IMG/VR virus record: IMGVR_UViG_3300044621_002117
Location: 1-46,963 of that record
Strand: one strand, 5' to 3'
DNA: 46,963 bases
Source: a virus
Program-made: the position numbers and the translations under genes
In this document: one piece after another, positions 10,293-46,813 of the stretch
How the letters are laid out: every line of letters starts with the position of its first letter
Numbering within the stretch: position 1 is the stretch's first letter
The notes under the pieces: generated by a model
What the model was told of the DNA's origin: nothing
What the model saw: the letters and a program-made list of their open reading frames with translations, nothing else
The model's database searches: none

Positions 10293-10845
10293 CCTAGTTA
10301 AAACAAAAGCCCATAGAGTTCTAGGGATAGACGCTTCAACAAGCTCAATTGCTTTTTGCTTAATTGAAAATAATAAACCAATTAAATGGGGTAAAATTAA
10401 TTTGGTGGGTAACGATATATATGAAAAAATATATGATGCTAAAGTAAAAACATCTCTAATGCTTGATGAGCTTAAGTCTGATTATATATCAGTAGAGGGA
10501 GCCATACTTGTCAAATCTGCTGATGCTGTGATAAAATTATCTTATGTGTACGGAGTTGTAATCGCTGAGCTTATGTCTACTGGAGCGTCAGTTATTACCA
10601 TATCTCCAAGTGCATGGCAAGCGCACATTGGAAATAAGAACCCAACTAAAGATGAAAAAGAAGCGATAAGAGTAAAGAATCCAGGATACGCAGACTCATG
10701 GTATAAAAACCAGCTAAGGAATATGCGTAAACAAAGAACAGTAGATTATTTTAACAAGATGTACAACTTAAACATCAACGACTTTGATGTTGCAGATGCA
10801 TTTGGAATTGCATATTATTCAAATGAGGTGTTAACTAAACGATGA
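10279..10845 (+). CDS. RuvC-like Holliday junction resolvase
   Basis: This 188-residue RNase H-fold nuclease has acidic active-site residues in register with RuvC: D18 in RVLGIDASTSS, E73 in YISVEGAI, and D170/D173 in NDFDVADAFGIAYY. It would cut four-way junctions before packaging or during recombination. A lysine-rich insertion (GNKNPTKDEKEAIRVKNPGYADSW) lies between the second and third motifs, as in some phage RuvC relatives. The start overlaps the zinc-finger gene by 14 nt. Confidence 0.82.
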   Translation: MTLANLVKTKAHRVLGIDASTSSIAFCLIENNKPIKWGKINLVGNDIYEKIYDAKVKTSLMLDELKSDYISVEGAILVKSADAVIKLSYVYGVVIAELMSTGASVITISPSAWQAHIGNKNPTKDEKEAIRVKNPGYADSWYKNQLRNMRKQRTVDYFNKMYNLNINDFDVADAFGIAYYSNEVLTKR

Positions 10846-14566: not shown

Positions 14567-14658
14567 TGAAATATTTATTGTTTTTAATAAAATATAAATA
14601 TAGCAAACTAAAAAGATTAATCTTAAAAAAGGGGAATAAGGATAGGTTTACTTACTAA
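14566..14658 (+). CDS. Tiny basic peptide
   Basis: This 30-residue ORF (MKYLLFLIKYKYSKLKRLIL...) links two genes by ATGA and TAATG junctions. It is hydrophobic at the N-terminus and strongly Lys-rich after that. It may be a real peptide or only a coupling ORF for the carbamoyltransferase. Confidence 0.4.
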   Translation: MKYLLFLIKYKYSKLKRLILKKGNKDRFTY

Positions 14659-16100
14659 TGATTATCCTTGGCATAAACGAAACATCCCATGATGCTTCAG
14701 TGTCCCTTATAAAAGATGGAGAAATCTTGTTTGCGGGGCATGCAGAAAGATACAGTAAGGAAAAAAATGATTGGTACAATAACAAAGAAATTATACTAGA
14801 CGCTTTAAATTATGGCACACCAGATGCAATTGCCTATTACGAAAAGCCTATGCTAAAAAGATCTAGAATTATTTTAAGGGGTGGGAAGTCAGACTGGAAG
14901 CCTACATTTCCTATTGATGTTCCAGTTCACTACTTTAAACATCATTATTCTCATGCAGCAGCTGGGTACTATACAAGCAAGTTTAATGACGCATGCATAG
15001 TTGTTTTAGATGCAATAGGGGAGTATAACACTTCAACAATTTGGGTTGGAGAAGGAGAAAGTATTAGTCTAAAGTACAAGAAAAATTACCCCACAAGCTT
15101 CGGCCTATTCTACTCTGCATTTACGAAACTTATTGGCCTTATGCCAAATCAAGAAGAATACATAATGATGGGAATGGCTGCTTATGGAAATGCAGAAAGA
15201 TATGCTCCAAAAGTATCTAACTATTTTCTTAGACATGACATGCAAAAATACAATTTACATAAAGGGATTGTTGATTGGAATGAAGCAATTACAGAACAAG
15301 ACAGATTTGATATAGCGGCAGCCGTACAGTATGTATATCAAAAAAGACTGTTAGAGTTTATGAAAATGGCTAAAGAATTAACTGGGAAAAGTAACCTAGT
15401 ATTTATGGGTGGGTGTGCACTTAACTCATCAGCAAACACCGCTCTGTGGGATATTTTTGATTCAGTTTGGATTATGCCAAACCCAGGAGATGCTGGCAGC
15501 TCTTTAGGAGCAGCAGCAGCACTGTACGGAAAGCATATAAATTGGAAAACACCTTACCTTGGCCATGATATGGGTGGAACATATCCAATTGATGATATTG
15601 TAAAGGGTATTTTAAAAGATGGTATAGTCGCAGTTGCTTCAGGAAGAGCTGAGTACGGCCCAAGAGCATTAGGCAATAGATCTATTTTAGCAGATCCTAG
15701 AGACCCTAACATAAAAGATAAAGTTAATTCAATAAAGCAAAGGGAACAGTTCAGACCATTTGCACCAGTAGTCATGGCAGAGCATGCTTCCAAATGGTTC
15801 GATATGAATTTTGAAAGTCCTTATATGCAATATACAGTTAAATGTCTACAGCCAGAAAAAATACCATCTGTTGTGCACGAGGATGGAACATCAAGGGTGC
15901 AAACAGTTACTAAAGAACAACACCCTGGACTATATAAAGTTCTTAATAAGTTTTATTTACAGACTGGAGTTCCTATTTTATTAAACACTAGTTTAAACAT
16001 TAAGGGTCAACCTCTTTTAAATGATCATCAAGATGCTATTGACTGGCAGGCACATTACGGATATAATATACTAACTAGTGCCAGTAGCTTAGTTGGTTAA
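14658..16100 (+). CDS. NodU/CmcH-family carbamoyltransferase
   Basis: This 480-residue protein has the N-terminal HSP70-like fold motifs ILGINETSHDASVSLIKDG and FKHHYSHAAAGYY (metal-binding His residues), then IVVLDAIGEYNTSTIW, MGGCALNSSAN and the C-terminal YrdC-like block SGRAEYGPRALGNRSILADPR. The family transfers carbamoyl from carbamoyl phosphate to hydroxyl groups of sugars or antibiotics; I recall relatives from phage metagenomes acting on 5-hydroxymethylcytosine. The C-terminus is slightly short and the last eight codons, stop included, lie inside tRNA-Met, so the end may have been remodelled when the tRNA arrived. The start follows a TAATG junction. Confidence 0.85.
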   Translation: MIILGINETSHDASVSLIKDGEILFAGHAERYSKEKNDWYNNKEIILDALNYGTPDAIAYYEKPMLKRSRIILRGGKSDWKPTFPIDVPVHYFKHHYSHAAAGYYTSKFNDACIVVLDAIGEYNTSTIWVGEGESISLKYKKNYPTSFGLFYSAFTKLIGLMPNQEEYIMMGMAAYGNAERYAPKVSNYFLRHDMQKYNLHKGIVDWNEAITEQDRFDIAAAVQYVYQKRLLEFMKMAKELTGKSNLVFMGGCALNSSANTALWDIFDSVWIMPNPGDAGSSLGAAAALYGKHINWKTPYLGHDMGGTYPIDDIVKGILKDGIVAVASGRAEYGPRALGNRSILADPRDPNIKDKVNSIKQREQFRPFAPVVMAEHASKWFDMNFESPYMQYTVKCLQPEKIPSVVHEDGTSRVQTVTKEQHPGLYKVLNKFYLQTGVPILLNTSLNIKGQPLLNDHQDAIDWQAHYGYNILTSASSLVG

Positions 16101-16151
16101 AGCCCCGAACTCATAATTCGGTAATCGTAGGTTCAAGTCCTACCTGGCACA
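16078..16151 (+). tRNA. tRNA-Met (CAT anticodon)
   Basis: A cloverleaf can be drawn: a 7-bp acceptor GTGCCAG/CTGGCAC, D-arm with AGTTGGTTAA, anticodon stem CCGAA/TTCGG around loop CTCATAA, and T-arm GTAGG TTCAAGT CCTAC. CCA is not encoded. CAT could be elongator Met or lysidine-modified Ile. The 5' 23 bases overlap the end of the carbamoyltransferase gene. Confidence 0.88.
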
Positions 16152-16152
16152 C

Positions 16153-16224
16153 ACCTTTGTAGCTCAGCGGAAGAGCAACAGACTTCTAATCTGTAGGTCG
16201 CTGGTTCGATCCCAGCCAGGGGTA
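16153..16224 (+). tRNA. tRNA-Arg (TCT anticodon)
   Basis: Acceptor ACCTTTG/CAGGGGT (two G-U pairs), anticodon stem ACAGA/TCTGT with loop CTTCTAA, T-arm GCTGG TTCGATC CCAGC. It reads AGA, the arginine codon favoured in many genes of this AT-rich window. One base separates it from tRNA-Met. Confidence 0.9.
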
Positions 16225-16225
16225 C

Positions 16226-16298
16226 GTTCCTATAGCTCAGCTGGTAGAGCAGCAGACTTTTAATCTGCGGGTCGATGGTTCGAAACCATCTGGGGACA
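16226..16298 (+). tRNA. tRNA-Lys (TTT anticodon)
   Basis: Acceptor GTTCCTA/TGGGGAC, anticodon stem GCAGA/TCTGC with loop CTTTTAA, T-arm GATGG TTCGAAA CCATC. It reads AAA, very frequent in this window. It is one base from tRNA-Arg, so the three are probably processed from one transcript. Confidence 0.9.
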
Positions 16299-16330
16299 CG
16301 GGGTTGTACCCACTTACATAAGGAGAAGAA

Positions 16331-21912: not shown

Positions 21913-22940
21913 TGTTGGTTAATAAAAAATTTTATTCTAATACTGTAAAAAATTCTATTATGCCAAATAATTTTTTTTCAAAAAATTTAATAGACAAGGA
22001 TAACTTTAATAAAGAAAATAATTCTTTTTATAAAAAAGGCAAATATTTTTATTCAAAGTACTTGTTTTTATATGAACGAGATGTAGTCTCTGGAGATAGC
22101 TTTGAATATCAAATTAACTCTCAGGGTTTTAGAGGAAAAGACTTTGATGAATTTGATAAAAATAATATAAATATTTTATTTGGTGGGTGCTCGCAAACAC
22201 TTGGAGTCGGTCTACCAGAAGAAAACACCTGGTATAAAAAACTTTCAGATAGGGTTGCTCTTATGCATGAGGGAAAGAAAGTTGATTTTTACAATATTTC
22301 TGTCAATGGATCTAGTATTGAGCTTATTGTAAAGAACACTATTGCTTTTATAAAGAGGGGCACGAAGCCAGACTACATATTCTTGTTTTTACCAGAATCA
22401 TCTAGGGTAATGTCATTTAATAAAGATGAAAATGAATTTGACTTGTATATTCCTAATGCTAAATTTGAAAAAGAGAGAAAGTATTATTTAAACAATTATA
22501 TACATGAAGATAAACTGCTTATCAATTTTATTTTGCTATCACTTCTTGAAGAAGTGTGTATTCTATCTGGAATCAAATTGTTATGGACTACCTGGGAAAG
22601 ACCAGAAAGCAAAATGTATATGGATGGAGGGTTTAATAATTTTTTTAAAATTGATGAAAATTTAGCTAGCATTGCGGTAAATCCACCAGATGAAAAATTC
22701 GGAAGAATGGATTTTTTAGAAAAACAATACAAGATTGAAATAGAAAAATTTAACAATAGGTATAACAATAAAAATAATGAGCCTTACTGGCATTCAGCAA
22801 GGGACGGTCTGCATTATGGGTCAGCGGCAAGTAGTGTAATAGCTGATATCTTTATTAAAGAATTAGATCCATATTACTATTCATCTTTATATACAGAAAA
22901 AATTCAAAAAAATCAAAAAGATGCTAGCAATAATACTTAA
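21912..22940 (+). CDS. SGNH-hydrolase-like protein
   Basis: This 342-residue protein starts on a TAATG junction; the ATG at 21882 lies inside the DUF2061 gene. Block I is ILFGGCSQTLGVGLPEENTW, then YNISVNGSSIELIV, DYIFLFLPESS, and the terminal ARDGLHYGSAASSVIADI supplying D and H. It is a paralogue of the gene at 19933. The first 90 residues are very Asn/Lys-rich and AT-rich in codon use. Confidence 0.65.
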   Translation: MLVNKKFYSNTVKNSIMPNNFFSKNLIDKDNFNKENNSFYKKGKYFYSKYLFLYERDVVSGDSFEYQINSQGFRGKDFDEFDKNNINILFGGCSQTLGVGLPEENTWYKKLSDRVALMHEGKKVDFYNISVNGSSIELIVKNTIAFIKRGTKPDYIFLFLPESSRVMSFNKDENEFDLYIPNAKFEKERKYYLNNYIHEDKLLINFILLSLLEEVCILSGIKLLWTTWERPESKMYMDGGFNNFFKIDENLASIAVNPPDEKFGRMDFLEKQYKIEIEKFNNRYNNKNNEPYWHSARDGLHYGSAASSVIADIFIKELDPYYYSSLYTEKIQKNQKDASNNT

Positions 22941-22965
22941 CATTTTAAGATACATTTGATATAAT
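22937..22965 (+). promoter_or_regulatory. Leaderless-type promoter
   Basis: TTAACA (22937-22942), 17 bp, TATAAT (22960-22965), 6 nt, ATG at 22972. One of the clearest examples of the recurrent geometry. The -35 overlaps the stop region of the preceding gene. Confidence 0.75.
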
Positions 22966-22971
22966 ATTATT

Positions 22972-23160
22972 ATGCCAGTATACGAATACAAATGCTCATA
23001 TGATGAAGCACATGCATTAATGTCAGTAAATAGATCAATTACCGAAGATGACCCAGGATATACATGTGTTGAATGTGAATCAAATATGGTAAGACACTTC
23101 ACCCCGTTTGGCATACAATTTAAAGGTAATGGGTTTTATAAAACAGATAATCCTAAATAG
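22972..23160 (+). CDS. FmdB-family zinc-ribbon protein
   Basis: This 62-residue protein begins MPVYEYKCSYDEAH, has a second Cys pair CVEC, and ends with FKGNGFYKTDNPK. This is the FmdB regulatory-protein signature seen across bacteria and many actinobacteriophages. The four cysteines should bind one zinc. The role is unclear, perhaps nucleic-acid binding. It is a single-gene unit with a promoter 6 nt from the ATG. Confidence 0.85.
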   Translation: MPVYEYKCSYDEAHALMSVNRSITEDDPGYTCVECESNMVRHFTPFGIQFKGNGFYKTDNPK

Positions 23161-30033: not shown

Positions 30034-30062
30034 TTGACAATATCTGGTCAATTTAGTAGAAT
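30034..30062 (+). promoter_or_regulatory. Consensus promoter of the subtilase gene
   Basis: TTGACA (30034-30039), 17 bp, TAGAAT (30057-30062), 7 nt, ATG at 30070. The perfect -35 suggests strong expression. Confidence 0.75.
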
Positions 30063-30069
30063 TAGCTTT

Positions 30070-31029
30070 ATGAAAAAACTAATAACTATGGCACTTGCTG
30101 CCACACTAATCGCTATGACATCTATGCCCGCTGAGGCAAATTTAAAACCTAAAACGGTTACACCTACACTTGCTATTCTAGATACTGCGCTTGACACATC
30201 AATTCCTGGAATTAAGTCACGAATTGTTGCAGAGGTTTGTATTTTAGATTGGCCATCATGTCCAAATGGAACTAGATACATGGAGGGTCCAGGGGCATCT
30301 GTTATCCCACTCAACATTCTTTCAACATCATCATTTAATCATGGAACTCAAATGGTTTCAGCAGCACTGCATGCTAATCCAAACCTGAATATTGTTTTTG
30401 TAAGAATTGTTGGAAACACAAGAGCTGGTGCTCAGCAGACATACGGAATTAATACACTTGCAAACGCATTATCTTGGGTTAATAGCAATAGGCTAAAGTA
30501 TAATATTGTTGCCGTAGCATCATCACATGCAACTAATGCTCCAGTTATTAGAATGAAAACTGCCGACTATTGCTTACCAACTAAAATTGATTCAATTGTT
30601 TCTACTTTGAATAACTCTGGCATTCCAGTGTTTTTCCCTTCAGGCAATAGTGGAACTAATCCAGCAATGAAGGATAAGATTGAATGGCCTGCATGCATTA
30701 AGCAATCAGTTGCAGTGGGTGGCATTGAAACTCTTAACCTAGATCGACCACAGATATCTTTGATTAGCAATTACGATAAGAACCTGGTAGATTTGTGGGG
30801 AGAAGTTCAGCTACCAACCATATACCCTGGAAACAAACCTGGTTTTTCTTACGGAACATCTGTTTCTGTCCAGGTTATCGCAGCAAAGTACGTGCAGTTA
30901 AAGACTATCTTTCCAGCATATACAGCTGATCAATTGATTACGCTAATGAAATCTTCTTCTGTAGAAATTTCATCACCTAACGGACAAAGCGTTTACTTGT
31001 TTAATTTGCTAAAGGCAATCAATGGATAG
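30070..31029 (+). CDS. Secreted subtilisin-like serine protease (S8 family)
   Basis: This 319-residue protein has a signal peptide (MKKLITMALAATLIAM...AEA). The catalytic set is D38 in AILDTALD, H91 in FNHGTQMV, the oxyanion Asn in FPSGNSGT, and S264 in SYGTSVS, all in subtilase order. No long propeptide is visible. The promoter fixes the start at 30070, not the in-frame codon at 30034 that lies in the -35 box. It would be exported and cut proteins on the host surface or outside. A secreted protease in a phage is rare. Confidence 0.85.
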   Translation: MKKLITMALAATLIAMTSMPAEANLKPKTVTPTLAILDTALDTSIPGIKSRIVAEVCILDWPSCPNGTRYMEGPGASVIPLNILSTSSFNHGTQMVSAALHANPNLNIVFVRIVGNTRAGAQQTYGINTLANALSWVNSNRLKYNIVAVASSHATNAPVIRMKTADYCLPTKIDSIVSTLNNSGIPVFFPSGNSGTNPAMKDKIEWPACIKQSVAVGGIETLNLDRPQISLISNYDKNLVDLWGEVQLPTIYPGNKPGFSYGTSVSVQVIAAKYVQLKTIFPAYTADQLITLMKSSSVEISSPNGQSVYLFNLLKAING

Positions 31030-34447: not shown

Positions 34448-35095
34448 ATGTCTAGCAATAAATATGGATCAGTAATAAAAAACATTATAGAGCCATTTAA
34501 GGTAGAAGGTTTCTTTGAGGAAGAGCAATTTAATATAGTAAAAGATTACTTTGTTGATCATGAGGATCTTAAGTCAACTCCAAAATCTTACTACTTGTCT
34601 AAAAAAATTAGCTCGTACTCAGATGATTTTTTAAAAAAACTTCACGTAGATCTTTTGCCTAGAGTAAAAGAAGTATTTGGTAATGACTCTATAGTTCCAT
34701 CCTACGCTCTACTTTTAGAGTATAGCGGTAGCGATGGTCATGTCACGCCTCATATGGACGAGGGTCCCTGTGCATTTACAATAGATGTATGTCTATATGA
34801 AAATAGCGATTGGCCACTAAATGTAGACGATAAAGTTTTTTCTTTAAAGCCTAACGATGCTATATTTTTTCATGGGTCAAGGCATATGCACAGCAGAACT
34901 GGTCTAAAAAATAATGATAACCACAATGTAGTTATTCTATTTCATTATGATCTTCCAGACCACCAATTTTTTAAGTTACCAGAATCATTGCAAAAGATGT
35001 ATATACCTCAGACTGGTAAAGATTACATATTTAAATTGATAGATGAGTTTAACGATATGGGAAAAGTAGAAAATACTATTGACTCTAAGCAGTAA
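34448..35095 (+). CDS. 2OG-Fe(II) oxygenase-like protein, subfamily B
   Basis: This 215-residue protein has HxD at H102/D104 (VTPHMDEGPCAFT), then SDWPLNVDDKVFSLKPNDAIFFHG, a distal His near H148 (RHMHSRTG) and VVILFHYDLP. It belongs with the proteins at 13886 and 37948. A GGAG site precedes the ATG. Substrate unknown; protein, nucleotide or sugar hydroxylation are all possible. Confidence 0.7.
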   Translation: MSSNKYGSVIKNIIEPFKVEGFFEEEQFNIVKDYFVDHEDLKSTPKSYYLSKKISSYSDDFLKKLHVDLLPRVKEVFGNDSIVPSYALLLEYSGSDGHVTPHMDEGPCAFTIDVCLYENSDWPLNVDDKVFSLKPNDAIFFHGSRHMHSRTGLKNNDNHNVVILFHYDLPDHQFFKLPESLQKMYIPQTGKDYIFKLIDEFNDMGKVENTIDSKQ

Positions 35096-35107
35096 TTATT
35101 GTATAAT
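35079..35107 (+). promoter_or_regulatory. Leaderless-type promoter
   Basis: TTGACT (35079-35084), 17 bp, TATAAT (35102-35107), 6 nt, ATG at 35114. The -35 box lies in the last codons of the oxygenase gene. Confidence 0.75.
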
Positions 35108-35113
35108 TTATTT

Positions 35114-35275
35114 ATGAATAACTTTATTATAATCGGACTAATTGTATTTGTTTTATCAGCATACTTAGGAGTGAAGCTTTATCGAGATATGTCTTTTATA
35201 TTTAATGCAAAAAGGATTCAAGAGCAGTACAAAAAAGATAAATTTTGGGAAACCCAAGAATTTTTTGAAGAATAA
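35114..35275 (+). CDS. Single-pass membrane peptide
   Basis: This 53-residue ORF has a transmembrane helix NFIIIGLIVFVLSAYLGV and a charged cytoplasmic tail (RDMSFIFNAKRIQEQYKKDKFWETQEFFEE). The promoter directly upstream supports it as a real gene. Function unknown. Confidence 0.65.
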   Translation: MNNFIIIGLIVFVLSAYLGVKLYRDMSFIFNAKRIQEQYKKDKFWETQEFFEE

Positions 35276-39819: not shown

Positions 39820-40164
39820 TTAGAATGAATCTAAGTCCATTATGTATTTGCTATCTCTTACTCTTGTTTCTTCAAGGGATTTAATAGTTAGGTTTCTATC
39901 CACCGCCCCGTATTTTGCCTCAATCATATCGTTGAGAGCATCAGCCAAAAGCAATCCTTCGGATGTATATCCTTTATCCCATTCTGACTTTAATCTAAGG
40001 GAATTATATTGGATAATATATCTAACTAGTTCCATTAGCCTGTCTTGTGTATACAAGGTATGTTCAGTTGTTAGTACATTAGCCATTACTGCTGGTGAGA
40101 AGTTAGCATTATTTAGATAGTCTGTTAGTTTTTCTGCCGCCTTGAATTCGTTCGCCTTAGCCAT
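39820..40164 (-). CDS. Hypothetical protein
   Basis: This 114-residue helical protein (MAKANEFKAAEKLTDYLNNANFSPAVMANVLTTEHTL...) has no motif I recognise. It has an 11-bp-spaced promoter and an AACGAAAGG leader, and ends at a strong terminator, so it is a single-gene unit at the far end of the minus-strand block. Confidence 0.7.
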   Translation of the reverse strand: MAKANEFKAAEKLTDYLNNANFSPAVMANVLTTEHTLYTQDRLMELVRYIIQYNSLRLKSEWDKGYTSEGLLLADALNDMIEAKYGAVDRNLTIKSLEETRVRDSKYIMDLDSF

Positions 40165-40184: not shown

Positions 40185-40207
40185 ATTATACCATTGACCA
40201 CTGACAT
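40185..40207 (-). promoter_or_regulatory. TGTCAGTGG-class promoter (copy 1)
   Basis: ATGTCA, 11 bp, TATAAT with TGG before it (extended -10), followed within 10 nt by AACGAAAGG. Drives the gene at 39820-40164. Confidence 0.7.
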
Positions 40208-40219
40208 TTGTAAATGAAG

Positions 40220-40249
40220 GGGGACCTGCCTCCGAAGAGGAAGGTCCCC
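40220..40249 (-). terminator. Terminator after the Lsr2-like gene
   Basis: GGGGACCT and AGGTCCCC enclose a second small stem CCTC/GAGG. It is located just past the stop of the Lsr2-like gene. The U-run is poor, but the stem is strong. Confidence 0.6.
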
Positions 40250-40260
40250 ACAGTTAGTTA

Positions 40261-40410
40261 TTACTTGACGTTCTTCTTGTCTGTAAAGACTACGCCTTCT
40301 TGTGCTGCCTTGCTGATGACTCCTAGAGCTGCAGCTGAAAAGCGACCACGCTTGCCCACGGCAATTCCCTGGGTCTTTAGGTATTCACGAGTTGTTGTTG
40401 GTGTTGACAT
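40261..40410 (-). CDS. Lsr2-like DNA-binding peptide
   Basis: This 49-residue protein reads TTREYLKTQGIAVGKRGRFSAAALGVISKAAQEG. It matches the C-terminal DNA-binding domain of the actinobacterial nucleoid protein Lsr2 (REWA..NG..V..RGRIP), with the RGR hook at about 21-23 that inserts into the AT-rich minor groove. The dimerisation domain is absent, so it could act as an anti-silencer or competitor of host Lsr2. AAAGGAT precedes the ATG. Confidence 0.8.
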   Translation of the reverse strand: MSTPTTTREYLKTQGIAVGKRGRFSAAALGVISKAAQEGVVFTDKKNVK

Positions 40411-40445
40411 TAGTTTGATCCTTTCTAGATCGAGTTGTTATATAT

Positions 40446-40474
40446 ATTATATCCGAATTTCGGGGTTTTGTAAA
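40446..40474 (-). promoter_or_regulatory. Sigma-70-type promoter of the Lsr2-like gene
   Basis: TTTACA, 17 bp, TATAAT on the minus strand. It overlaps repeat copy 3 and lacks the TGTCAGTGG element, so this gene appears to be controlled differently from its neighbours. Confidence 0.65.
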
Positions 40475-40515
40475 TAGGGTCGTAAAGCAATATTTTTGCC
40501 CGTGTCCCTTAGCTT
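40455..40515. repeat. Dispersed intergenic repeat, copy 3
   Basis: AATTTCGGGG replaces AATTCCAGGG; TCGTAAAG follows 24 nt later, then GCCC and CCCTTAGCTT. It overlaps the Lsr2-like promoter. Confidence 0.6.
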
Positions 40516-40556
40516 AATGGCCGTTATGTCCGAATTGTCCATAACGGCCAAAGCTA
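40510..40556 (-). terminator. Large hairpin after the gene at 40560
   Basis: TGGCCGTTATG pairs with CATAACGGCCA (11 bp, 11-nt loop), extended by TAGCTT/AAGCTA with a 2-nt bulge. No U-run follows on the minus strand, so termination or RNA stabilisation are both possible. Confidence 0.55.
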
Positions 40557-40559
40557 TCT

Positions 40560-40742
40560 TTATTCAGTTGTTAGTTCTTCTACTTGGTATGGCTCTATCT
40601 TGTCCTTACGATTGGCACCCTTTTCCCATTCCTTTTTGGGTGAGGCTACCGCTTTGTACCATGCTTCATCACTGTCTTCGGCTTCTACTACAATGTAGTA
40701 CTCCTGAATGATGTCTCCGTATACTTTAAATTGTTTACTCAT
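40560..40742 (-). CDS. Small alpha/beta protein
   Basis: This 60-residue protein (MSKQFKVYGDIIQEYYIVVEAEDSDEAWYKAVASPKKEWEKG) has a strand-helix-strand pattern typical of small phage proteins, similar in layout to the ORF at 26761. It is last in an operon that runs from 41418 down to 40560; the start overlaps the preceding gene. Confidence 0.6.
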   Translation of the reverse strand: MSKQFKVYGDIIQEYYIVVEAEDSDEAWYKAVASPKKEWEKGANRKDKIEPYQVEELTTE

Positions 40743-40882
40743 AGTCCTACCTGCTCTATCTTATCTTTAATTAATTTAGCAATGATGTTGTGCGCCTCAA
40801 TGTTTTCTGTTTCGGACCCACCCCACAAAAGTTTTTGGGCTTTGCTAAGTTGATCGTTTAGATACTCATCACTCATCTTCAT
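40739..40882 (-). CDS. Small helical protein
   Basis: This is a 47-residue protein. The start at 40882 is chosen because GGAGG lies 6 nt upstream; in-frame codons further upstream fall inside the previous gene. It reads MSDEYLNDQLSKAQKLLWGG...AHNIIAKLIKDKIEQVGL. It overlaps both neighbours. Function unknown. Confidence 0.55.
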   Translation of the reverse strand: MKMSDEYLNDQLSKAQKLLWGGSETENIEAHNIIAKLIKDKIEQVGL

Positions 40883-41186
40883 CTTCGTCCTCCTCATCTT
40901 CTTCAAACATTGTATCCACAATGTAGTCACGGTTAGTCATCCATTCAAGTACATCTTCTTGGTGCTGTTCTGCGCCATACTCCAAGGAGAACCCTTGGCC
41001 AGCCTCCACAGCCTCGCAGAGGTGGTCCCACATCTCATCTATGGTGCAGTTCTGCTTGTAGGTCTCATCCTCAAAGATGTTGTTGATTGTTGACCAAGTC
41101 CACAACCAAACCAGGGATAGACCAAGGTCAGTGCTGTCTAGAATCTTTAAACATTCGTTTAGTTTATCTTTATCTTCAGGCTTCAT
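40869..41186 (-). CDS. Acidic hypothetical protein
   Basis: This is a 105-residue protein. GGAG sits 6 nt before the ATG at 41186, so this is preferred to the ATG at 41204. The core has LSLVWLWTWSTINNIFEDE, and the C-terminus is EEDEEDEDEDE, a strongly acidic tail that could mimic DNA or bind basic proteins. No family recognised. Confidence 0.65.
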   Translation of the reverse strand: MKPEDKDKLNECLKILDSTDLGLSLVWLWTWSTINNIFEDETYKQNCTIDEMWDHLCEAVEAGQGFSLEYGAEQHQEDVLEWMTNRDYIVDTMFEEDEEDEDEDE

Positions 41187-41418
41187 TACGTGCTCCAATC
41201 GCAAATGACAGGTCGTATGTTAAGTTGTATAGTTCTGTAAATCCGTCTAGTTTACCAGACCAGTACTTTTTGTGGTCAGGGTTAGTCCTAGTTAACATCA
41301 TGTTTTCTGCTTCAAGCATTAGATTTTTTAGTTCGCCGTGCATTATATCTAGTCCACTAACATTTGCATTAACTAAGCGTTGCAAATGGGGCGGGAGCCC
41401 AATGTCTTCTCTATTCAT
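41176..41418 (-). CDS. Hypothetical protein
   Basis: This 80-residue protein (EDIGLPPHLQRLVNANVSGLDIMHGELKNLMLEAENMML) is helical. It has its own 11-bp-class promoter and heads the operon that runs to 40560. Function unknown. Confidence 0.65.
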   Translation of the reverse strand: MNREDIGLPPHLQRLVNANVSGLDIMHGELKNLMLEAENMMLTRTNPDHKKYWSGKLDGFTELYNLTYDLSFAIGARNEA

Positions 41419-41624
41419 TAATATACCCTTTCGTTGTCAATCATTATATCATTGGCCACTGACAAAATATGTTCCATAGTATCAATGGCACCAGTGTAAT
41501 AAGCATCTGATTCAAAATACTCATCTTCATTTAAAGGTACATTATTTCTAGCATCCTCTAAATCTTGATTAAGACTAATTAAATGTATCTTCATGTATTC
41601 CAGGAAGTGTGATGATCTAGTCAA
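41418..41624 (-). CDS. Hypothetical protein
   Basis: This 68-residue protein has a TTG start with GGAGGG 5 nt upstream, which is better supported than the internal ATG at 41594. It reads THFLEYMKIHLISLNQDLEDARNNVPL-like helices; the real start is MTRSSHFLEYMKIH. It overlaps the gene upstream by 8 nt. Confidence 0.6.
   Translation of the reverse strand: MTRSSHFLEYMKIHLISLNQDLEDARNNVPLNEDEYFESDAYYTGAIDTMEHILSVANDIMIDNERVY
41443..41465 (-). promoter_or_regulatory. TGTCAGTGG-class promoter (copy 2)
   Basis: TTGTCA, 11 bp, TATAAT with TGA before it, followed by GACAACGAAAGGG. It overlaps the 3' part of the upstream gene and drives the gene starting at 41418. Confidence 0.7.
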
Positions 41625-41769
41625 AGTAGCCCTCCGACCAAAGCCCGTCTAAAAAGTCTGCTGTCTTTTCTAATCCTTTTTCAGTCGGCAGTCCCTTAGA
41701 ATCATATAGAGCCTTAGTAACAACAGCCCTCATTTCATCTAAATCGTTTAATGTATATCCTAACATCAT
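41617..41769 (-). CDS. Small helical protein
   Basis: This 50-residue ORF reads MMLGYTLNDLDEMRAVVTKALYDSKGLPTEKGLEKTADFLDGLWSEGY. It overlaps both neighbours by a few bases and has AAGGAGATGAG about 10 nt upstream. Composition and packing support translation. Confidence 0.6.
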   Translation of the reverse strand: MMLGYTLNDLDEMRAVVTKALYDSKGLPTEKGLEKTADFLDGLWSEGYFD

Positions 41770-41978
41770 AGTAAGAACTCATCTCCTTCAATATAACCAT
41801 AGTATTCATTGTATGATTGTTTTAAGTTATCAGGAGCAAATTGCATGAACTTGTATTCAGCATATGCCTCCCCTTCTTCTAAGTTAGAATTGTTCCATTG
41901 CTCAAATAGATGTTGCTCAATATCTACTTGAATTGCTCCAAGGATATGTTCTCCAACTGTATCTGTAAATGCTTCCAT
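41766..41978 (-). CDS. Small acidic hypothetical protein
   Basis: This 70-residue protein starts at the TAATG junction with the Api92-like gene (41978). It is acidic with several aromatic residues (EQHLFEQWNNSNLEEGEAYAEYKFMQF). No family recognised. Confidence 0.6.
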   Translation of the reverse strand: MEAFTDTVGEHILGAIQVDIEQHLFEQWNNSNLEEGEAYAEYKFMQFAPDNLKQSYNEYYGYIEGDEFLL

Positions 41979-42703
41979 TATGCATCCGCCTTTTCCATAG
42001 AAGGTAATAATACCATGTGGGTCTGACAAATTGCCATAGCATCAAGGTCAGCATCATGGCTAAAGAAACAAGATGAACATATCTCGCCACAATCATTGTC
42101 GCAATACTCAAATGTATCTGTTGCATCACAGTTGTTACATTTTGTATCATATGATGATTCTGAAATAACTTCTCCACGGAGGAATTCCATTTCTCCACCC
42201 CAGCCTGTTTCTTCTTCATATACTAAAGTAAATAGTAGATTAGGGTATTGTGCAGATAGTTTAGATATAGCAGGAAGAGGTCTTGACCATGCCGTCTCAA
42301 AGTTGTAATAGACTACATAGTTCTCGCCATTCTCGGCTTCTTCCATATATGTAGTAGGACTAGTTTCTTCTTCTGTTACAGCAACATCCCACTTAGTTCC
42401 CCAGTTGCGGATATTCCAGTTGTACCAGTCATTAGTTTCAAACTTGTACCAATTCTTGTCGCCAACCGTACCAAAGTCGGGCTGGGAAAGATAAACCTCG
42501 TCAGTAACATTATCATCTATATAGTTATAGATGTTATGAAAACTAAAGATAGGATTAACATGCTTGATATGTTTAATCTCAAATGCTAAATCACCACGAG
42601 ATTGAACTTTGCTTACATATGGCTTATTCATTTGTTTAATTAAAGATTTAACTTGGTCAGGATTACCTTCAATAGTTAAACCGTTATATACCCAATTTGG
42701 CAT
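41978..42703 (-). CDS. Api92-like/DUF1281 protein with zinc ribbon
   Basis: This 241-residue protein begins MPNWVYNGLTIEGNPDQVKSL, the ferredoxin-like start of Api92-like proteins, and has the conserved NWYNWNIRNWGTKWDV block and EEETGWGGEMEFLRGE. The C-terminus holds a cysteine cluster (CNNCDATDTFEYCDNDCGEICSSC) that should bind one or two zinc ions. The role of this phage and plasmid family is unknown. The start follows AAAGGA by 8 nt; upstream in-frame ATGs are in the promoter. Confidence 0.75.
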   Translation of the reverse strand: MPNWVYNGLTIEGNPDQVKSLIKQMNKPYVSKVQSRGDLAFEIKHIKHVNPIFSFHNIYNYIDDNVTDEVYLSQPDFGTVGDKNWYKFETNDWYNWNIRNWGTKWDVAVTEEETSPTTYMEEAENGENYVVYYNFETAWSRPLPAISKLSAQYPNLLFTLVYEEETGWGGEMEFLRGEVISESSYDTKCNNCDATDTFEYCDNDCGEICSSCFFSHDADLDAMAICQTHMVLLPSMEKADA

Positions 42704-42730
42704 TTTATATCCTTTCGTTGATATGTGATA

Positions 42731-42753
42731 ATTATACATTGGACCACTGACAA
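42731..42753 (-). promoter_or_regulatory. TGTCAGTGG-class promoter (copy 3)
   Basis: TTGTCA, 11 bp, TATAAT, then TTATCACATATCAACGAAAGG before the Api92-like start. Drives the operon from 42703 down to about 41617. Confidence 0.7.
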
Positions 42754-42817
42754 ATGGAATAGAATTGGCATGTGATACATGCCACATAATTCAGATTTGT
42801 GGTCAAGATCACAGCAA

Positions 42818-42880
42818 ATTCCAGGGAATATAATTGACAGTCGTAAAGACAATATGCTACCCTCAAGTCTTTGCGGGCAA
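42818..42880. repeat. Dispersed intergenic repeat, copy 4
   Basis: ATTCCAGGG, then TCGTAAAG 23 nt later, then CCCTCAAG and TTTGCGGGC. It lies between a terminator and the next promoter, as do the other copies. Confidence 0.65.
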
Positions 42881-42908
42881 TAGAAAACCCCCAGCTATGC
42901 TGGGGGTT
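42880..42908 (-). terminator. Terminator with CCCCCAGC/GCTGGGGG stem
   Basis: A 10-bp stem including AAC/GTT closes over a TAT loop; the minus-strand product ends TTTTCTATT. It would end transcription of the 43032-44572 operon or of the candidate small RNA. Confidence 0.85.
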
Positions 42909-43024
42909 ATGAATATGGCTGCTGATTTCCAACGAAAGAAATAAACCGCTTTACTTAGCGCCTGGCCATAAAGACTAAATAGACGCACCATTTCATTTCC
43001 TATTAAAACCAGGACCAAAGTCCT
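42880..43024 (-). ncRNA. Candidate small RNA or orphan leader with terminator
   Basis: On the minus strand an extended -10 (TGG-TATAAT, 43036-43031) lies in the 43032 gene's stop region. A hairpin AGGAC/GTCCT (43011-43024) would be at the RNA 5' end. A rho-independent terminator (AACCCCCAGC with GCTGGGGGTT, then TTTTCTATT) lies about 145 nt further. The only ORF runs through the terminator stem and is not convincing. Confidence 0.35.
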
Positions 43025-43031
43025 AGTCTAA

Positions 43032-43397
43032 TTATACCATAACTAGTCGACTGTATTTGTCTACAAATGCCGCTAATGATGAACTAAATACAACTGTTTC
43101 TAGGTCTTCCTCGTATAGCGTAAATGTTTGGCTTGCCCAATTAATTACAGGCACCTTGTGCTCGTTGTCCCCCAATTGGTTGACATAGATACCCCACGAT
43201 AATGTTTGGTTCCAGTCTTCTCCAATTAGATGTGAGATGGCAATGCGTGTTGCATATGATGGGTCCTGCCATCTTGTTTCTGCAGCCTGCACAGCATTTG
43301 CTAGTTTTGCTAGCATGTCGTATCCTGCCCAGTGCCCGTATAAAAATACTGTATCACCCTTTTGGTCTTTAAACCCAAAGTTTGCTCTGTCTCCCAT
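43032..43397 (-). CDS. Conserved phage protein (GDRANFGFK type)
   Basis: This 121-residue protein (GDRANFGFKDQKGDTVFLYGHWAGYDMLAKLANAV) matches a layout I recall from several actinobacteriophages, with no known function. It contains an LYGHWAG turn and mixed alpha/beta character. It lies in a chain of short genes. Confidence 0.7.
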   Translation of the reverse strand: MGDRANFGFKDQKGDTVFLYGHWAGYDMLAKLANAVQAAETRWQDPSYATRIAISHLIGEDWNQTLSWGIYVNQLGDNEHKVPVINWASQTFTLYEEDLETVVFSSSLAAFVDKYSRLVMV

Positions 43398-43398
43398 T

Positions 43399-43599
43399 TT
43401 ATTCCGCCGTTTCTAAAGTAGGTATTGCTGGTTCTATCTTGTCTAATTCTATCACTTCATAGGCTACCTTGTCTAGGCCTGCCTTATTTTTATTGTAGTG
43501 GTGACCGCAAAAAGCTAACTCACCATCTACTAGTTTAACTAGATACATTGCATCTGCTGATCCACATGCATCACATGGAATGAACTCTCTGTCTCTCAT
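43399..43599 (-). CDS. DUF7455-like zinc protein
   Basis: This 66-residue protein has CDACGSADAMYLVKLVDGELAFCGHHYNK, a CxxC...CxHH zinc site characteristic of an actinobacterial protein family with unknown role. It supports an actinobacterial host. It overlaps the upstream gene by 4 nt. Confidence 0.75.
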   Translation of the reverse strand: MRDREFIPCDACGSADAMYLVKLVDGELAFCGHHYNKNKAGLDKVAYEVIELDKIEPAIPTLETAE

Positions 43600-43742
43600 A
43601 GAGCACCGCCTTCAATCATTTCAGAAAGACGGTCAAGAATCCAAGAATCAATATCGTTGATATCAATTTCTGATAACTTCTCCATTATTTCTTCACGGGC
43701 AAACTTATACCCGTCATCCCATCCATCCTTATACTCTGACAT
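43596..43742 (-). CDS. Small acidic helical protein
   Basis: This 48-residue ORF (MSEYKDGWDDGYKFAREEIMEKLSEIDINDIDSWILDRLSEM) is coupled by ATGA to the DUF7455-like gene. Strongly helical; the DGWDDGYKFAREEI start is like many small phage proteins. Function unknown. Confidence 0.6.
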   Translation of the reverse strand: MSEYKDGWDDGYKFAREEIMEKLSEIDINDIDSWILDRLSEMIEGGAL

Positions 43743-43751
43743 AATCTCTCC

Positions 43752-43955
43752 TTAATAACCTGTGGTTTCGTAGTCTGATACATAAGATTCAGTTAAGTTA
43801 TACTTATCTCTAAGTCTACTTACTTTCTCAATACTACCAGTTCCAATGTTGAATGTCAATGGAGACATTGCTTGTGGGTCGAGCCCTGTGATTTGTGCAT
43901 CCCAATAGGCCCTCTCCATGGAGAGCCTATCAGGAGCGGTGAGTTCAAAATACAT
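43752..43955 (-). CDS. Hypothetical protein
   Basis: This 67-residue protein (MYFELTAPDRLSMERAYWDAQITGLDPQAMSP) starts at a TAATG junction. Mixed alpha/beta; no family recognised. Confidence 0.6.
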   Translation of the reverse strand: MYFELTAPDRLSMERAYWDAQITGLDPQAMSPLTFNIGTGSIEKVSRLRDKYNLTESYVSDYETTGY

Positions 43956-44572
43956 TAGTCCACCTCTACTGAATCGATAGATGATGACATATATGTAATA
44001 GGCTCATCATAAGATACTGTGTCAAAGTCTGTTTCGTGAATTGCATTGATAGCAGACTCCTCGTCACGAGCATTAACTGTAACTGAATATTGTACTGTTA
44101 CAGTCAACTCAAATTCATTTGTAAGTTCGAACCCACAGATGCTTGCAATCTCTTCTGCTTGAAACTCAGTCAATGAATCATCATCAAGGCCCTCTAGTGT
44201 AAAGACCTTCATGTTATCACGTAACTGATTTAGAACGCTTGCAGTATTGTAATCTCGTTGAGTTACACGCTGGATGTGCTCTTCCAACTGTGTAATGCGG
44301 GCCTTGTTCTCAACTAACTGTGACTCAAGGAATTCTCGTGTCATGTAGTGATTATCTGTTGTTGTTTCCATTTTATCCTCTTTCGTTGTTGTTGGTGTAA
44401 TTGTAGCATGCTCCACTGACAATAATGTGGTCTTGCGTCCGCATGGGCATGTGAGCGTTGTCACACCTGAAGGAAAGCCAAATCCATCAGATGATGTTAG
44501 TTCTATTAATGAATCACATTCATCTGGGTCACAGACAAATGTATACTTGCTTGATACTAGTTCGTTGGTCAT
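43955..44572 (-). CDS. Zinc-ribbon/coiled-coil protein with internal start
   Basis: This 205-residue protein starts at 44572, 7 nt after a TATAAT box. The first 60 residues form a zinc ribbon (FVCDPDECDS..LTCPCGRKT). The rest is a coiled coil (LVENKARITQLEEHIQRV) and a ferredoxin-like end (ELTVTVQYSVTVNARDEESAINAIHE). A second promoter and ribosome site (GAGGA before ATG at 44371) lie within the gene in frame, so a 138-residue shorter product is likely too. Confidence 0.6.
   Translation of the reverse strand: MTNELVSSKYTFVCDPDECDSLIELTSSDGFGFPSGVTTLTCPCGRKTTLLSVEHATITPTTTKEDKMETTTDNHYMTREFLESQLVENKARITQLEEHIQRVTQRDYNTASVLNQLRDNMKVFTLEGLDDDSLTEFQAEEIASICGFELTNEFELTVTVQYSVTVNARDEESAINAIHETDFDTVSYDEPITYMSSSIDSVEVD
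44400..44422 (-). promoter_or_regulatory. TGTCAGTGG-class promoter inside the coding region (copy 4)
   Basis: TTGTCA, 11 bp, TACAAT with TGC before it, then AACAACGAAAGAGG and the in-frame ATG at 44371. It is inside the long ORF and would give the short form of that protein. Confidence 0.7.
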
Positions 44573-44579
44573 GAAGAGA

Positions 44580-44602
44580 ATTATACAGGATCCGACTGAC
44601 AT
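44580..44602 (-). promoter_or_regulatory. TGTCA-class promoter, leaderless (copy 5)
   Basis: ATGTCA, 11 bp, TATAAT, then only 7 nt to the ATG at 44572. It is the one member of the class that lacks the AACGAAAGG leader. Confidence 0.65.
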
Positions 44603-44610
44603 TATCAAGG

Positions 44611-44670
44611 ATTTCCAGGGGATTTTTATGTGAGTCGTAACACACTTTTTGCCCCCTTAGCTTTGAGGGC
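44611..44670. repeat. Dispersed intergenic repeat, copy 5
   Basis: ATTTCCAGGG, TCGTAA 23 nt later, then GCCCCCTTAGCTTTGAGGGC, whose ends can pair. It lies between tRNA-Asp and the promoter at 44580. Confidence 0.7.
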
Positions 44671-44673
44671 GCT

Positions 44674-44750
44674 TGGCGATCCATAACGGACTTGAACCGT
44701 CGACCTCTACCGTGACAGGGTAGCGCTCTAACCAACTGAGCTAATGGACC
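44674..44750 (-). tRNA. tRNA-Asp (GTC anticodon) with encoded CCA
   Basis: Acceptor GGTCCAT/ATGGATC (one G-U), D-arm GCTC..GAGC, anticodon stem CTACC/GGTAG with loop CTGTCAC, T-arm GACGG TTCAAGT CCGTT, discriminator G, CCA. It lies 3' of the DUF932 gene in the minus-strand unit. Unlike the three plus-strand tRNAs it encodes CCA, suggesting a different origin. Confidence 0.88.
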
Positions 44751-44798
44751 TAGAAAAAATTGTGAGCAGTTTTTATTCATGCTCAGGAATTTATTTAT

Positions 44799-45806
44799 TT
44801 AGAACGCAGAAATTAATTTCTTAATTTTATTTTTTTCTGCGGTTAGAATTGGGTCAAACCCTGATGCACCCGCCATGAGTGTTTCAGAATTTCCACGCCC
44901 TGAACGATAGTAATCAAGGCGTTCAGTAAGTGCATTGAATGCACCCCACTTTGTTCCCTTGATATTAGCGTTAGTTGGTGAGTTGTGATACAACTCGTCA
45001 AGCAACACGACTTTGTTTTCCCACTTAGTCAATGCAACTTTAGCAGCATCCTTGTCAGGCTTAGGATAAATTGTCTGAATTAATTTTGAGAATTCAGCAT
45101 CAGTGATTGATTGAGAATAAAGAGCCTGAGCCTCTTTCTCGAATTCATCAAAGTACCCAAGAGCAAGCCCAAGAGTTTCACGAGCAACTTGGATGCGACC
45201 TTCAACAGATTGCGTGTGGCGAATCTTGAAAGATTGCTTAGCATTCTTCATTGCAAGGTTAAGAGTGTTTTGGCATACAACACGAACAGGAGTAACAGCA
45301 GCCTGAACGGCAACTGACCCGTCATGAGATGTCCAAACAATTAGATACAACTTAGTTGCATCATTTGCGCCTTGTGGGTCAAGCACCATTGTGCGAGGAA
45401 TATCCACTGTACCGAATACAACCTTACCGCTACGAAGTGAGCCAGCAGATTCCCAACGGCAATCAGCATTAGCATCATGAATTGCATCAGCGAATGCGAA
45501 TAGTTCCTCATTCTGCACAGGCTTGTAACGCTTTCCAACAGTTGCAAGAACATCAGTTCCATTGTTGAATGGGTTGTCACGAATAACTAATTGAGCATTA
45601 GATACATCATTCCATGTATCTGAGATATGGTCAGTTAGTGGAGACAGGCGAACATTCCAATTAGAAAGTTTTGCCTCATCTAACATCATTTGAGTTGTGA
45701 CATCTTCATCTTGTGTAAAGATGCGATTTGCGAGATTGTGCCAAGCGGGTGCGCCACGCAGAGCGAATGCAACTTGACCATTTTCGGTTTCGAGATTATG
45801 AGCCAT
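44799..45806 (-). CDS. DUF932 family protein
   Basis: This 335-residue protein (NLETENGQVAFALRGAPAWHNLANRI at the start, TPVRVVCQNTLNLAMKNAKQSFKIRHTQSV in the middle, LDYYRSGRG and KNKIKKLISAF at the end) matches the phage/plasmid-like DUF932 family (TIGR03299), whose function is unknown. Length agrees with the family. The start follows a long leader with GAAAGG, about 12 nt upstream of the ATG. It is the largest gene in the minus-strand block. Confidence 0.85.
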   Translation of the reverse strand: MAHNLETENGQVAFALRGAPAWHNLANRIFTQDEDVTTQMMLDEAKLSNWNVRLSPLTDHISDTWNDVSNAQLVIRDNPFNNGTDVLATVGKRYKPVQNEELFAFADAIHDANADCRWESAGSLRSGKVVFGTVDIPRTMVLDPQGANDATKLYLIVWTSHDGSVAVQAAVTPVRVVCQNTLNLAMKNAKQSFKIRHTQSVEGRIQVARETLGLALGYFDEFEKEAQALYSQSITDAEFSKLIQTIYPKPDKDAAKVALTKWENKVVLLDELYHNSPTNANIKGTKWGAFNALTERLDYYRSGRGNSETLMAGASGFDPILTAEKNKIKKLISAF

Positions 45807-45836
45807 TATTTTTTACCTTTCGTTTGATTAGTTGTA

Positions 45837-45859
45837 AGTATAACAGACCCCACTGACAT
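45837..45859 (-). promoter_or_regulatory. TGTCAGTGG-class promoter (copy 6)
   Basis: ATGTCA, 11 bp, TATACT with TGT before it, then AATCAAACGAAAGG. Drives the DUF932 gene. Confidence 0.7.
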
Positions 45860-45913
45860 TGTCTAGGATTAGTTACAATATGTCCGAATTGATCCATGTG
45901 ATTAATCTCACAA

Positions 45914-45973
45914 AATTCCAGGGTTATCCACAAGTGGTCGTAACCCTGTGGATAACCCCTTAGCTTTGCGGGC
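45914..45973. repeat. Dispersed intergenic repeat, copy 6, with inverted DnaA boxes
   Basis: AATTCCAGGG and TCGTAA keep the 23-nt spacing, and CCCCTTAGCTTTGCGGGCC follows. Between and around them lie TTATCCACA (45924-45932) and TGTGGATAA (45947-45955), perfect DnaA-box consensus in opposite orientation within a 12-bp inverted repeat. The structure could be a replication origin, a DnaA-titrating site, or a terminator hairpin for the minus-strand gene ending at 46003. Confidence 0.7.
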
Positions 45974-46002
45974 CAGCTGCATATGCAACTGGTGCTAGAT
46001 CT

Positions 46003-46257
46003 TTACAGACCTAACTCTTCCCTAGTCAATTGGTTTTTGCGATTGAAGTTAATAACTTCGGACGGGAGATAAAGAGCAGTAGTCTTAGTCTTCTTCAATG
46101 TATCATAGACATAAGCACGAACATCCCCTAAGAAATTACGTCTATTAGAGAATGCTAACTCAGTTAGATAATCTTTATCTACACCTTGTTCTGAATAGAT
46201 TGTTACATCATTTGCTTTGTTTGCATCATAGATTTCTACTCTGAAACGATTTTTCAT
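46003..46257 (-). CDS. Hypothetical protein
   Basis: This 84-residue protein (NRFRVEIYDANKANDVTIYSEQGVDKDYLTELAFSNRR...) is mixed alpha/beta and basic at the end. It is preceded by AAAGGCAACAAA, and no promoter is seen, so it is probably co-transcribed with the gene at 46329. No family recognised. Confidence 0.65.
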   Translation of the reverse strand: MKNRFRVEIYDANKANDVTIYSEQGVDKDYLTELAFSNRRNFLGDVRAYVYDTLKKTKTTALYLPSEVINFNRKNQLTREELGL

Positions 46258-46328
46258 TTTGTTGCCTTTGTTAGTAGTTGTCCCAAAAGGGAGAGCAGTT
46301 TGGCGACATACTCAGGTCGTTGGATTAT

Positions 46329-46751
46329 TTACAGATAACGAGCAACTGCATTGTATGTAGAAGTATTTACTACTTCCTCATCTGTCATCTTGAGAATACG
46401 AATAGCGTTCTCAATTTCTTGCTTTTGCTCTAGGTATGTGTGGCGACCCATTTGCTCAAAATCACGCTCAGGCTCTGCTGGTAGTTCTGATTGTGTAACT
46501 GTCAAATCAAAGTCAATGTTGAGAGTGTTGTTCCAAGCACGATAGTTAGTACGGAAGTTTTCTGCCTTCTTGATGTTAGAAACGGCATAGGCAGTAATTT
46601 CCTTCTGCCACTTTTCCATAGCCTTCTTATACTTTGCTTCGTTTGTTTCTTGATTAGCATAGTTAGCATTAAGTTCTACCAACTTTGCTTCTAGTGCCTT
46701 GATTACCTTTGGTGTTGCGATTTTAACGCTGATTGCTTTTCCTCTAGCCAT
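46329..46751 (-). CDS. Coiled-coil hypothetical protein
   Basis: This 140-residue, strongly helical and charged protein (TPKVIKALEAKLVELNANYANQETNEAKYKKAMEKWQKEI, then YLEQKQEIENAIRILKMTDEEV) probably forms a coiled-coil dimer. Promoter and AACGAAAG leader upstream. No family recognised. Confidence 0.65.
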   Translation of the reverse strand: MARGKAISVKIATPKVIKALEAKLVELNANYANQETNEAKYKKAMEKWQKEITAYAVSNIKKAENFRTNYRAWNNTLNIDFDLTVTQSELPAEPERDFEQMGRHTYLEQKQEIENAIRILKMTDEEVVNTSTYNAVARYL

Positions 46752-46790
46752 TTGTTTCCTTCTTTCGTTGTTGGTTGGTTTGATTAGATA

Positions 46791-46813
46791 ATTATAGCAG
46801 GGGGGTCTGACAT
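46791..46813 (-). promoter_or_regulatory. TGTCA-class promoter inside a terminator hairpin (copy 7)
   Basis: ATGTCA, 11 bp, TATAAT with TGC before it. The TGTCA element lies in the loop, and part of the spacer in the stem, of a G-rich hairpin that would end transcription of the gene upstream. The leader again carries AACAACGAAAG. Confidence 0.7.

Follow-up and report, generated by a model that had tools for sequence, protein, structure and literature searches.

The mycobacterial damage-response promoters read by PafBC are the described systems closest to the element considered here. In the available parts of the published accounts, the LexA-independent damage promoter of Mycobacterium tuberculosis has the consensus tTGTCRgtg, 8 nt and TannnT (PMC5656591), RNA-seq gives TGTCGG, TGTCAG or TGTCAC followed by ten nucleotides and TA-3N-T, with an essential direction (PMC8151990), and a solved complex places the helix-turn-helix (HTH) of PafB on the -26 motif and that of PafC on SigA domain 4, PafBC being activated by single-stranded DNA (ssDNA) (PMC11804915). 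These RecA-NDp promoters have been described in Streptomyces (PMC5087735, as available in part) and extend to other Actinobacteria according to the part of a review that was available (PMC8223512). Among the papers listed on PafBC and RecA-NDp promoters, no title or abstract opening describes phage genes under PafBC. The middle promoters of phage T4 show a second known arrangement, sigma appropriation, where, as the available part of the source gives it, the role of the -35 element is taken over by an activator box set a fixed distance away from a strong -10, and TGn precedes the -10 in about half of the promoters (PMC2988021). The present analysis concerns a 46,963-nt stretch of virus DNA (IMG/VR record IMGVR_UViG_3300044621_002117; hereafter the window), which carries an array of -26/-10 promoters, all on the minus strand.

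A pattern search of the window found TGTCAG exactly 10 nt upstream of a -10 hexamer at eight array sites. Proceeding in the direction of transcription, these are TGTCAGACCCCCCTGCTATAAT (46791-46812), located before the open reading frame (ORF) 46329-46751, whose ATG lies 39 nt after the -10; TGTCAGTGGGGTCTGTTATACT (45837-45858), before the gene of a DUF932 protein; TGTCAGTCGGATCCTGTATAAT (44580-44601), which is leaderless, with an ATG 7 nt after the -10, and has TTGATA 17 bp upstream of the -10; TGTCAGTGGAGCATGCTACAAT (44400-44421), before the ATG at 44371; TGTCAGTGGTCCAATGTATAAT (42731-42752), before ORF 41978-42703; TGTCAGACCCACATGGTATTAT (42007-42028), 28 nt upstream of the ATG that opens ORF 41766-41978; TGTCAGTGGCCAATGATATAAT (41443-41464), before ORF 41176-41418; and TGTCAGTGGTCAATGGTATAAT (40185-40206), before ORF 39820-40164. 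All sites point towards a gene, seven of the eight being followed by a ribosome site and an ORF and the remaining one by the leaderless ATG. The window ends within the array. The original prediction, made from the letters alone, had listed seven of these sites as TGTCA, 11 bp and a -10 box; all seven are real and lie on the minus strand where it had placed them, and its count missed the site at 42007-42028. Further features that it described are also present: five of the seven have TATAAT as their -10, while site 44400 has TACAAT and site 45837 has TATACT, GTGG directly follows TGTCA in five, TGn stands ahead of the -10 in five, AACGAAAG precedes the start codon in six, and the plus strand of the window has no match to the module.

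The sequence of the sites matches the published mycobacterial PafBC damage-response promoter, so the motif itself is already known; the original prediction had not recognised it as such, and its interpretation is supported in part. All eight array sites conform to TGTC(A/G)G, 10 nt and TA-3N-T. This pattern has nine minus-strand matches in the window compared with a shuffle mean of 0.74; the ninth (2982-3003) is located within the DNA polymerase ORF, has no ORF of its own and is taken as a chance match. The longer form TGTCRGTG-8N-TAnnnT is present at five of the eight sites against 0.05 expected, with no match on the other strand or for the reversed control, and TGTCRGTG is absent from the other three. 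For TGTCA-N11-TAYRMT there were seven matches on the minus strand and none on the plus strand, against a mean of 0.39 (maximum 3, counting both strands) when the dinucleotides of the window were shuffled 300 times. When spacings from 4 to 25 were tried, the minus strand gave matches solely at 11 (seven), and the plus strand gave one each at 17, 21 and 22.

Relatives were fetched from the viral contigs by means of the DUF932 protein, and the best 80 of 255 were used. In all 80 the module lies 49-55 bp upstream of the DUF932 ATG, so that the motif does recur before the homologous gene in these relatives, related phages being where the original prediction had proposed to look for it. The 80 loci contain 909 sites on the DUF932-sense strand and none on the other, many loci being near-identical (194 distinct 22-mers), and 122 distinct TGTCA-11-TATAMT sites; the remaining spacings between 5 and 17 gave 0-4 each. 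All 18 long relatives (96-117 kb) have 4-16 main-strand sites (229 in total, with 6 on the minor strand and 18 matches for the reversed pattern), clustered within about 7-12 kb in most long records whose positions were given. The strict form of the motif was found in at least 120 stretches of the viral contigs, 80 of which became loci, and its reversed form in none; shifting the spacing by one base, to 10 or to 12, left one stretch each. The form with G for A and without the leading T was found in 78 stretches, and nine further long records drawn from that scan (G027-G035) have 2-16 strict RecA-NDp-pattern sites each, on a single strand, with none for the reversed control.

The logo of the window's family (family A) was made from 157 deduplicated sites; the search itself fixed TGTC, TA and the last T of the -10 and left the other positions free or partly free. 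After TGTC, it shows A83/G16, then G95, T63/A31 and G52/C40, and the TGn positions show T63 and G77. Upstream there is no TTGACA; all that can be seen is A/T richness from -19 to -17. The logo of lineage C (39 sites) has G79/A20 at the A/G position.

A second lineage (family B) also carries the motif. Its phage contig L134 contains three strict sites; judged by a single protein, the nearest relative of the lineage in GenBank is DSL-LC01 (60% over 85%), whose terminase has no similarity to that of the window (E 0.51) and which itself has no strict match. Across 33 family B loci, including DSL-LC01, 45 sites are on the plus strand and one on the other, with two for the reversed pattern, many of the sites being weak. 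When the family B genome G021 was compared with four genomes from the wider family of the window, it had 6-9 of 164 proteins in common with each. Only one of 23 distinct family B proteins encoded after such sites matches one of family A, and on this count gene exchange was rejected as the cause of the motif shared by A and B. Lineage C shares its terminase, its polymerase (54-55%) and other genes with family A, so it belongs to the same family and gives no independent case. Small shared ORFs had joined 305 loci in an initial clustering, which was dropped. In a DnaE tree of 11 rows, four Streptomyces phages group together (98/99) and the relation between A and C is not resolved; the four are labelled there as motif-less, BillNye and Elmer having been scanned and Larnav and Emma1919 not.

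Two further searches bear on the factor that reads the sites. Scans for a WYL domain were negative for the window and for all 18 relatives scanned, and a phage-encoded WYL activator was rejected on this ground. Of 21 actinophage records from GenBank, 20 of them naming a laboratory host, four contain one strict match each and 17 contain none, the reversed control giving one in all, and no record has an array. The presence of the motif in a second lineage, the lack of a WYL protein and the lack of an array in these actinophages together speak for a factor of the host, PafBC being the likeliest; most simply, the factor shared by the two lineages would be a host protein. An actinobacterial host is supported by the WhiB of the phage and by its relatives among Streptomyces phages; the virus probably infects freshwater actinobacteria, and the low GC content of the window (37%) suggests Nanopelagicales or a similar freshwater lineage.

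We consider the array sites to be PafBC-type (RecA-NDp) promoters with a probability of about 0.7, on the strength of sequence agreement and of its conservation. They share with the known PafBC promoters the hexamer with its A/G degeneracy, the 10-nt gap to TA-3N-T, the direction and the dispensability of a -35 element. The known promoters differ in preceding host genes, many of them for DNA repair, whereas the phage sites stand in tandem before small phage genes and have a near-consensus -10, often with TGn. We infer that the host possesses PafBC, that PafBC acts at the array, that the array is expressed early and that ssDNA is the trigger. Host RNA polymerase with sigma-A would recognise the -10, often extended, and the host WYL-domain heterodimer PafBC would stand in for the missing -35 contact, the PafB half reading TGTC(A/G)G(TG) at about -26 and the PafC half holding sigma-A domain 4 (sigma adaptation). 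The ssDNA arising from infection, DNA processing or damage would activate PafBC, and the array would be switched on by the damage sensor of the host. Its small, mostly unknown genes would probably form an early host-takeover module. Such a module is suggested by Streptomyces phage Jay2Jay (Stanwilliamsviridae): going by its annotation, each end of the record carries homologous array genes, among them an Lsr2-like gene and the homologue of the DUF932 gene, and their order is the same at the two ends, as in terminal repeats.

The -26/-10 sites are a class separate from the ordinary -35/-10 promoters of the phage. An internal control lies within the array, namely the small minus-strand gene 40261-40410, called Lsr2-like in the original prediction, which has the canonical promoter TTTACA-17-TATAAT at 40446-40474 on the minus strand; this promoter or one like it is present in 33 of 33 distinct upstream regions of the gene and the -26 element in none of them. 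Among the 13 leaderless candidates of the window, a TTGACA-like -35 stands 16-18 bp from the -10 in 7, and at the control spacing in none; site 44580 is one of these seven and the sole bearer of TGTCRG among the 13, leaving 6 of 12 with a -35 on the plus strand. The corresponding counts are 6 of 23 in G001 and 2 of 10 in the family B genome G021, the control being 0 in each. The occurrence of canonical promoters in the same genome indicates that the polymerase used by the phage probably reads a normal -35 and that the array uses something else. Several ORFs on the plus strand are likely leaderless, their ATG coming 6-7 nt past the -10 of a TTGACA-like-17-TATAAT-like promoter (e.g., 1025-1062, 22937-22974, 30034-30072 and 35079-35116); most array genes, unlike these, have leaders with a strong ribosome site.

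Several observations weigh against PafBC as the factor. Some concern the sequence: the base before TGTC is A57/T38 in the 157 family A sites, compared with a weak consensus t; A replaces the consensus t after TGTCRG in 31% of them; the consensus leaves the TGTCAGACC variant unexplained; an extra conserved element, AGTTT, occurs in lineage C (G027, loci L335-L339) at positions -23 to -19 relative to the -10 and stops two bases short of TGTCGG; and family B sites have a partial TTGACA at 18 bp, neither addition being part of the PafBC consensus as read here. The original prediction's statement that the -35 position has no consensus holds for the family A logo, from which a canonical TTGACA-like -35 at 16-18 bp is absent, but not for three of the eight window sites, which carry a one-mismatch hexamer: TTGATA (44580) and TAGACA (45837) at 17 bp and TTTACA (40185) at 18 bp. 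In the lineage C genome G027, none of 15 leaderless candidates has a -35 (control 0), so the contrast with canonical leaderless promoters, clear in the window by the counts per genome, is not seen there. Other observations concern distribution. Strict sites number only 0-4 in eight long family B records, with none in G019 and with one record having them on opposite strands. Streptomyces carries RecA-NDp promoters and mycobacteria carry PafBC, yet their phages that were tested have no array. In a collection of 84,980 species the strict form was found in 7 stretches, against about 7.5 by chance (uniform composition), and none of these was titled as an actinobacterium; host promoters may match less strictly than the strict form.

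Three other explanations were weighed, and it is agreed with the original prediction that sigma-70 alone leaves the 11-bp spacing unexplained and that, of the options it offered, an activator site is the best. Another activator, phage-encoded or of the host and MotA-like, might bind TGTCRGTG in place of the -35 contact, which we regard as unlikely. The geometry of T4 middle promoters speaks for it, their activator box lying 12 ± 1 bp from a good -10, as does the recurrence, beyond a single lineage, of WhiB and of a small zinc-finger-like protein (DUF7455). The T4 system differs in its box, (a/t)3TGCTTtA, and in its phage-encoded MotA and AsiA, as given in the part of PMC2988021 that was available; in the window no MotA box stands at the sites, the phage sequence being TGTCRG at exactly 11 bp, and the factor is probably that of the host. 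An unrelated activator would, moreover, have to coincide with the PafBC hexamer and spacing, which is rare by our estimate (2/4096 hexamers and about 1/20 spacings), and the lineages that have the motif share few proteins. The phage WhiB, which the original prediction had put forward as a possible factor, was rejected as the determinant of the motif, as a related WhiB (49-52% identity) occurs in phages Jay2Jay, BillNye and Annadreamy, all without a strict match. An HTH candidate had also been proposed at 10842; the nearby ORF ending at 10845 is RuvC-like.

It is improbable that the promoters fire constitutively with sigma-A through an extended -10 (TGnTATAAT), with TGTCRG as a repressor operator or a tuning element of the spacer. 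The TGn of five of the seven listed sites, together with T63 and G77 in the logo, is what such promoters would have, and the -35-like hexamers of three window sites and the partial TTGACA of family B point the same way. The -35 region of family A, however, lacks the TTGACA that other promoters of the same genome have kept, and an operator needs no invariant distance or orientation, with which the single stretch found at each one-base shift is at odds. An alternative or phage sigma factor reading both elements is very improbable: fixed spacing of two elements is sigma-like, and two Nanopelagicales phage isolates have a sigma-70-type factor of their own (PMC10202952), but the sites carry the plain TATAAT of sigma-A, with TGn often preceding it, and no sigma factor was found among the window and array proteins scanned, which are a part of all proteins. 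The original prediction had raised both an unusual sigma and a repressor operator, and for neither was evidence found, with the same part of the proteins scanned.

The genes behind the sites, all on the minus strand, are mostly small, and few of their products match a known family (3 of 10 in PHROGs for the window; 1 of 10 in Pfam and 0 of 10 in PHROGs for the relative G012). The DUF932 protein (44799-45806, 335 residues) is assigned by Pfam PF06067 (3.8e-56) and PHROG 1221, and ORF 41978-42703 encodes an Api92-like protein (DUF1281_C; family scan run from 42691). ORFs of unknown function encode 140 residues (46329-46751), 70 residues (41766-41978, after the eighth site), 80 residues (41176-41418) and 114 residues (39820-40164); a protein similar to the 70-residue product in G012 has no Pfam or PHROG match, and its gene comes after TGTCAGACCCATAAGATATACT. 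ORF 43955-44572 has two in-frame starts, each with its own -26 promoter, namely the leaderless ATG at 44572 and the ATG with a ribosome site at 44371. The two conserved promoters of these starts are 180 bp apart in the window and 167-168 bp apart in some relatives, so the N-terminal extension may not be in frame there. A tRNA-Asp gene (44674-44750, minus strand) lies within the array region. The small zinc-finger-like protein, a DUF7455 protein in its family B copy, recurs in families A and B and in lineage C (L343:17194-17403, plus strand; L348:4050-4334, minus strand), and in G012 it sits inside the promoter array. Elsewhere in the window, the plus strand encodes a Nol-like carbamoyltransferase (14658-16100), a protein with a ferrochelatase-family match (34448-35095) and a tRNA Met-Arg-Lys trio (16078-16299), which follows a TTGACT-17-TATAAT promoter at 16039.

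The end array of Jay2Jay is alike in being a one-strand array of small genes with a DUF932 homologue (50.7% identical), and DnaE polymerases of Streptomyces phages 54-57% identical to that of the window are among the matches listed. The Jay2Jay array differs in having canonical-looking TTGtnn-17/18-TAGACT promoters, as judged by eye, and nowhere in its record is there a strict -26 match.

We give about even odds to the broader proposal that phages of low-GC actinobacteria, in at least two unrelated lineages, place a whole takeover array under the ssDNA-sensing PafBC of the host, with no factor encoded by the phage. If this is true, phage takeover would be linked to ssDNA sensing, the alarm of the host serving as the start switch of the virus, and sigma adaptation would be exploited by viruses that supply no factor themselves. 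An odd class of phage promoters would then be explained, with ssDNA from damage or infection predicted to license the array genes, and the motif would serve to recognise, from sequence, phages whose hosts have PafBC.

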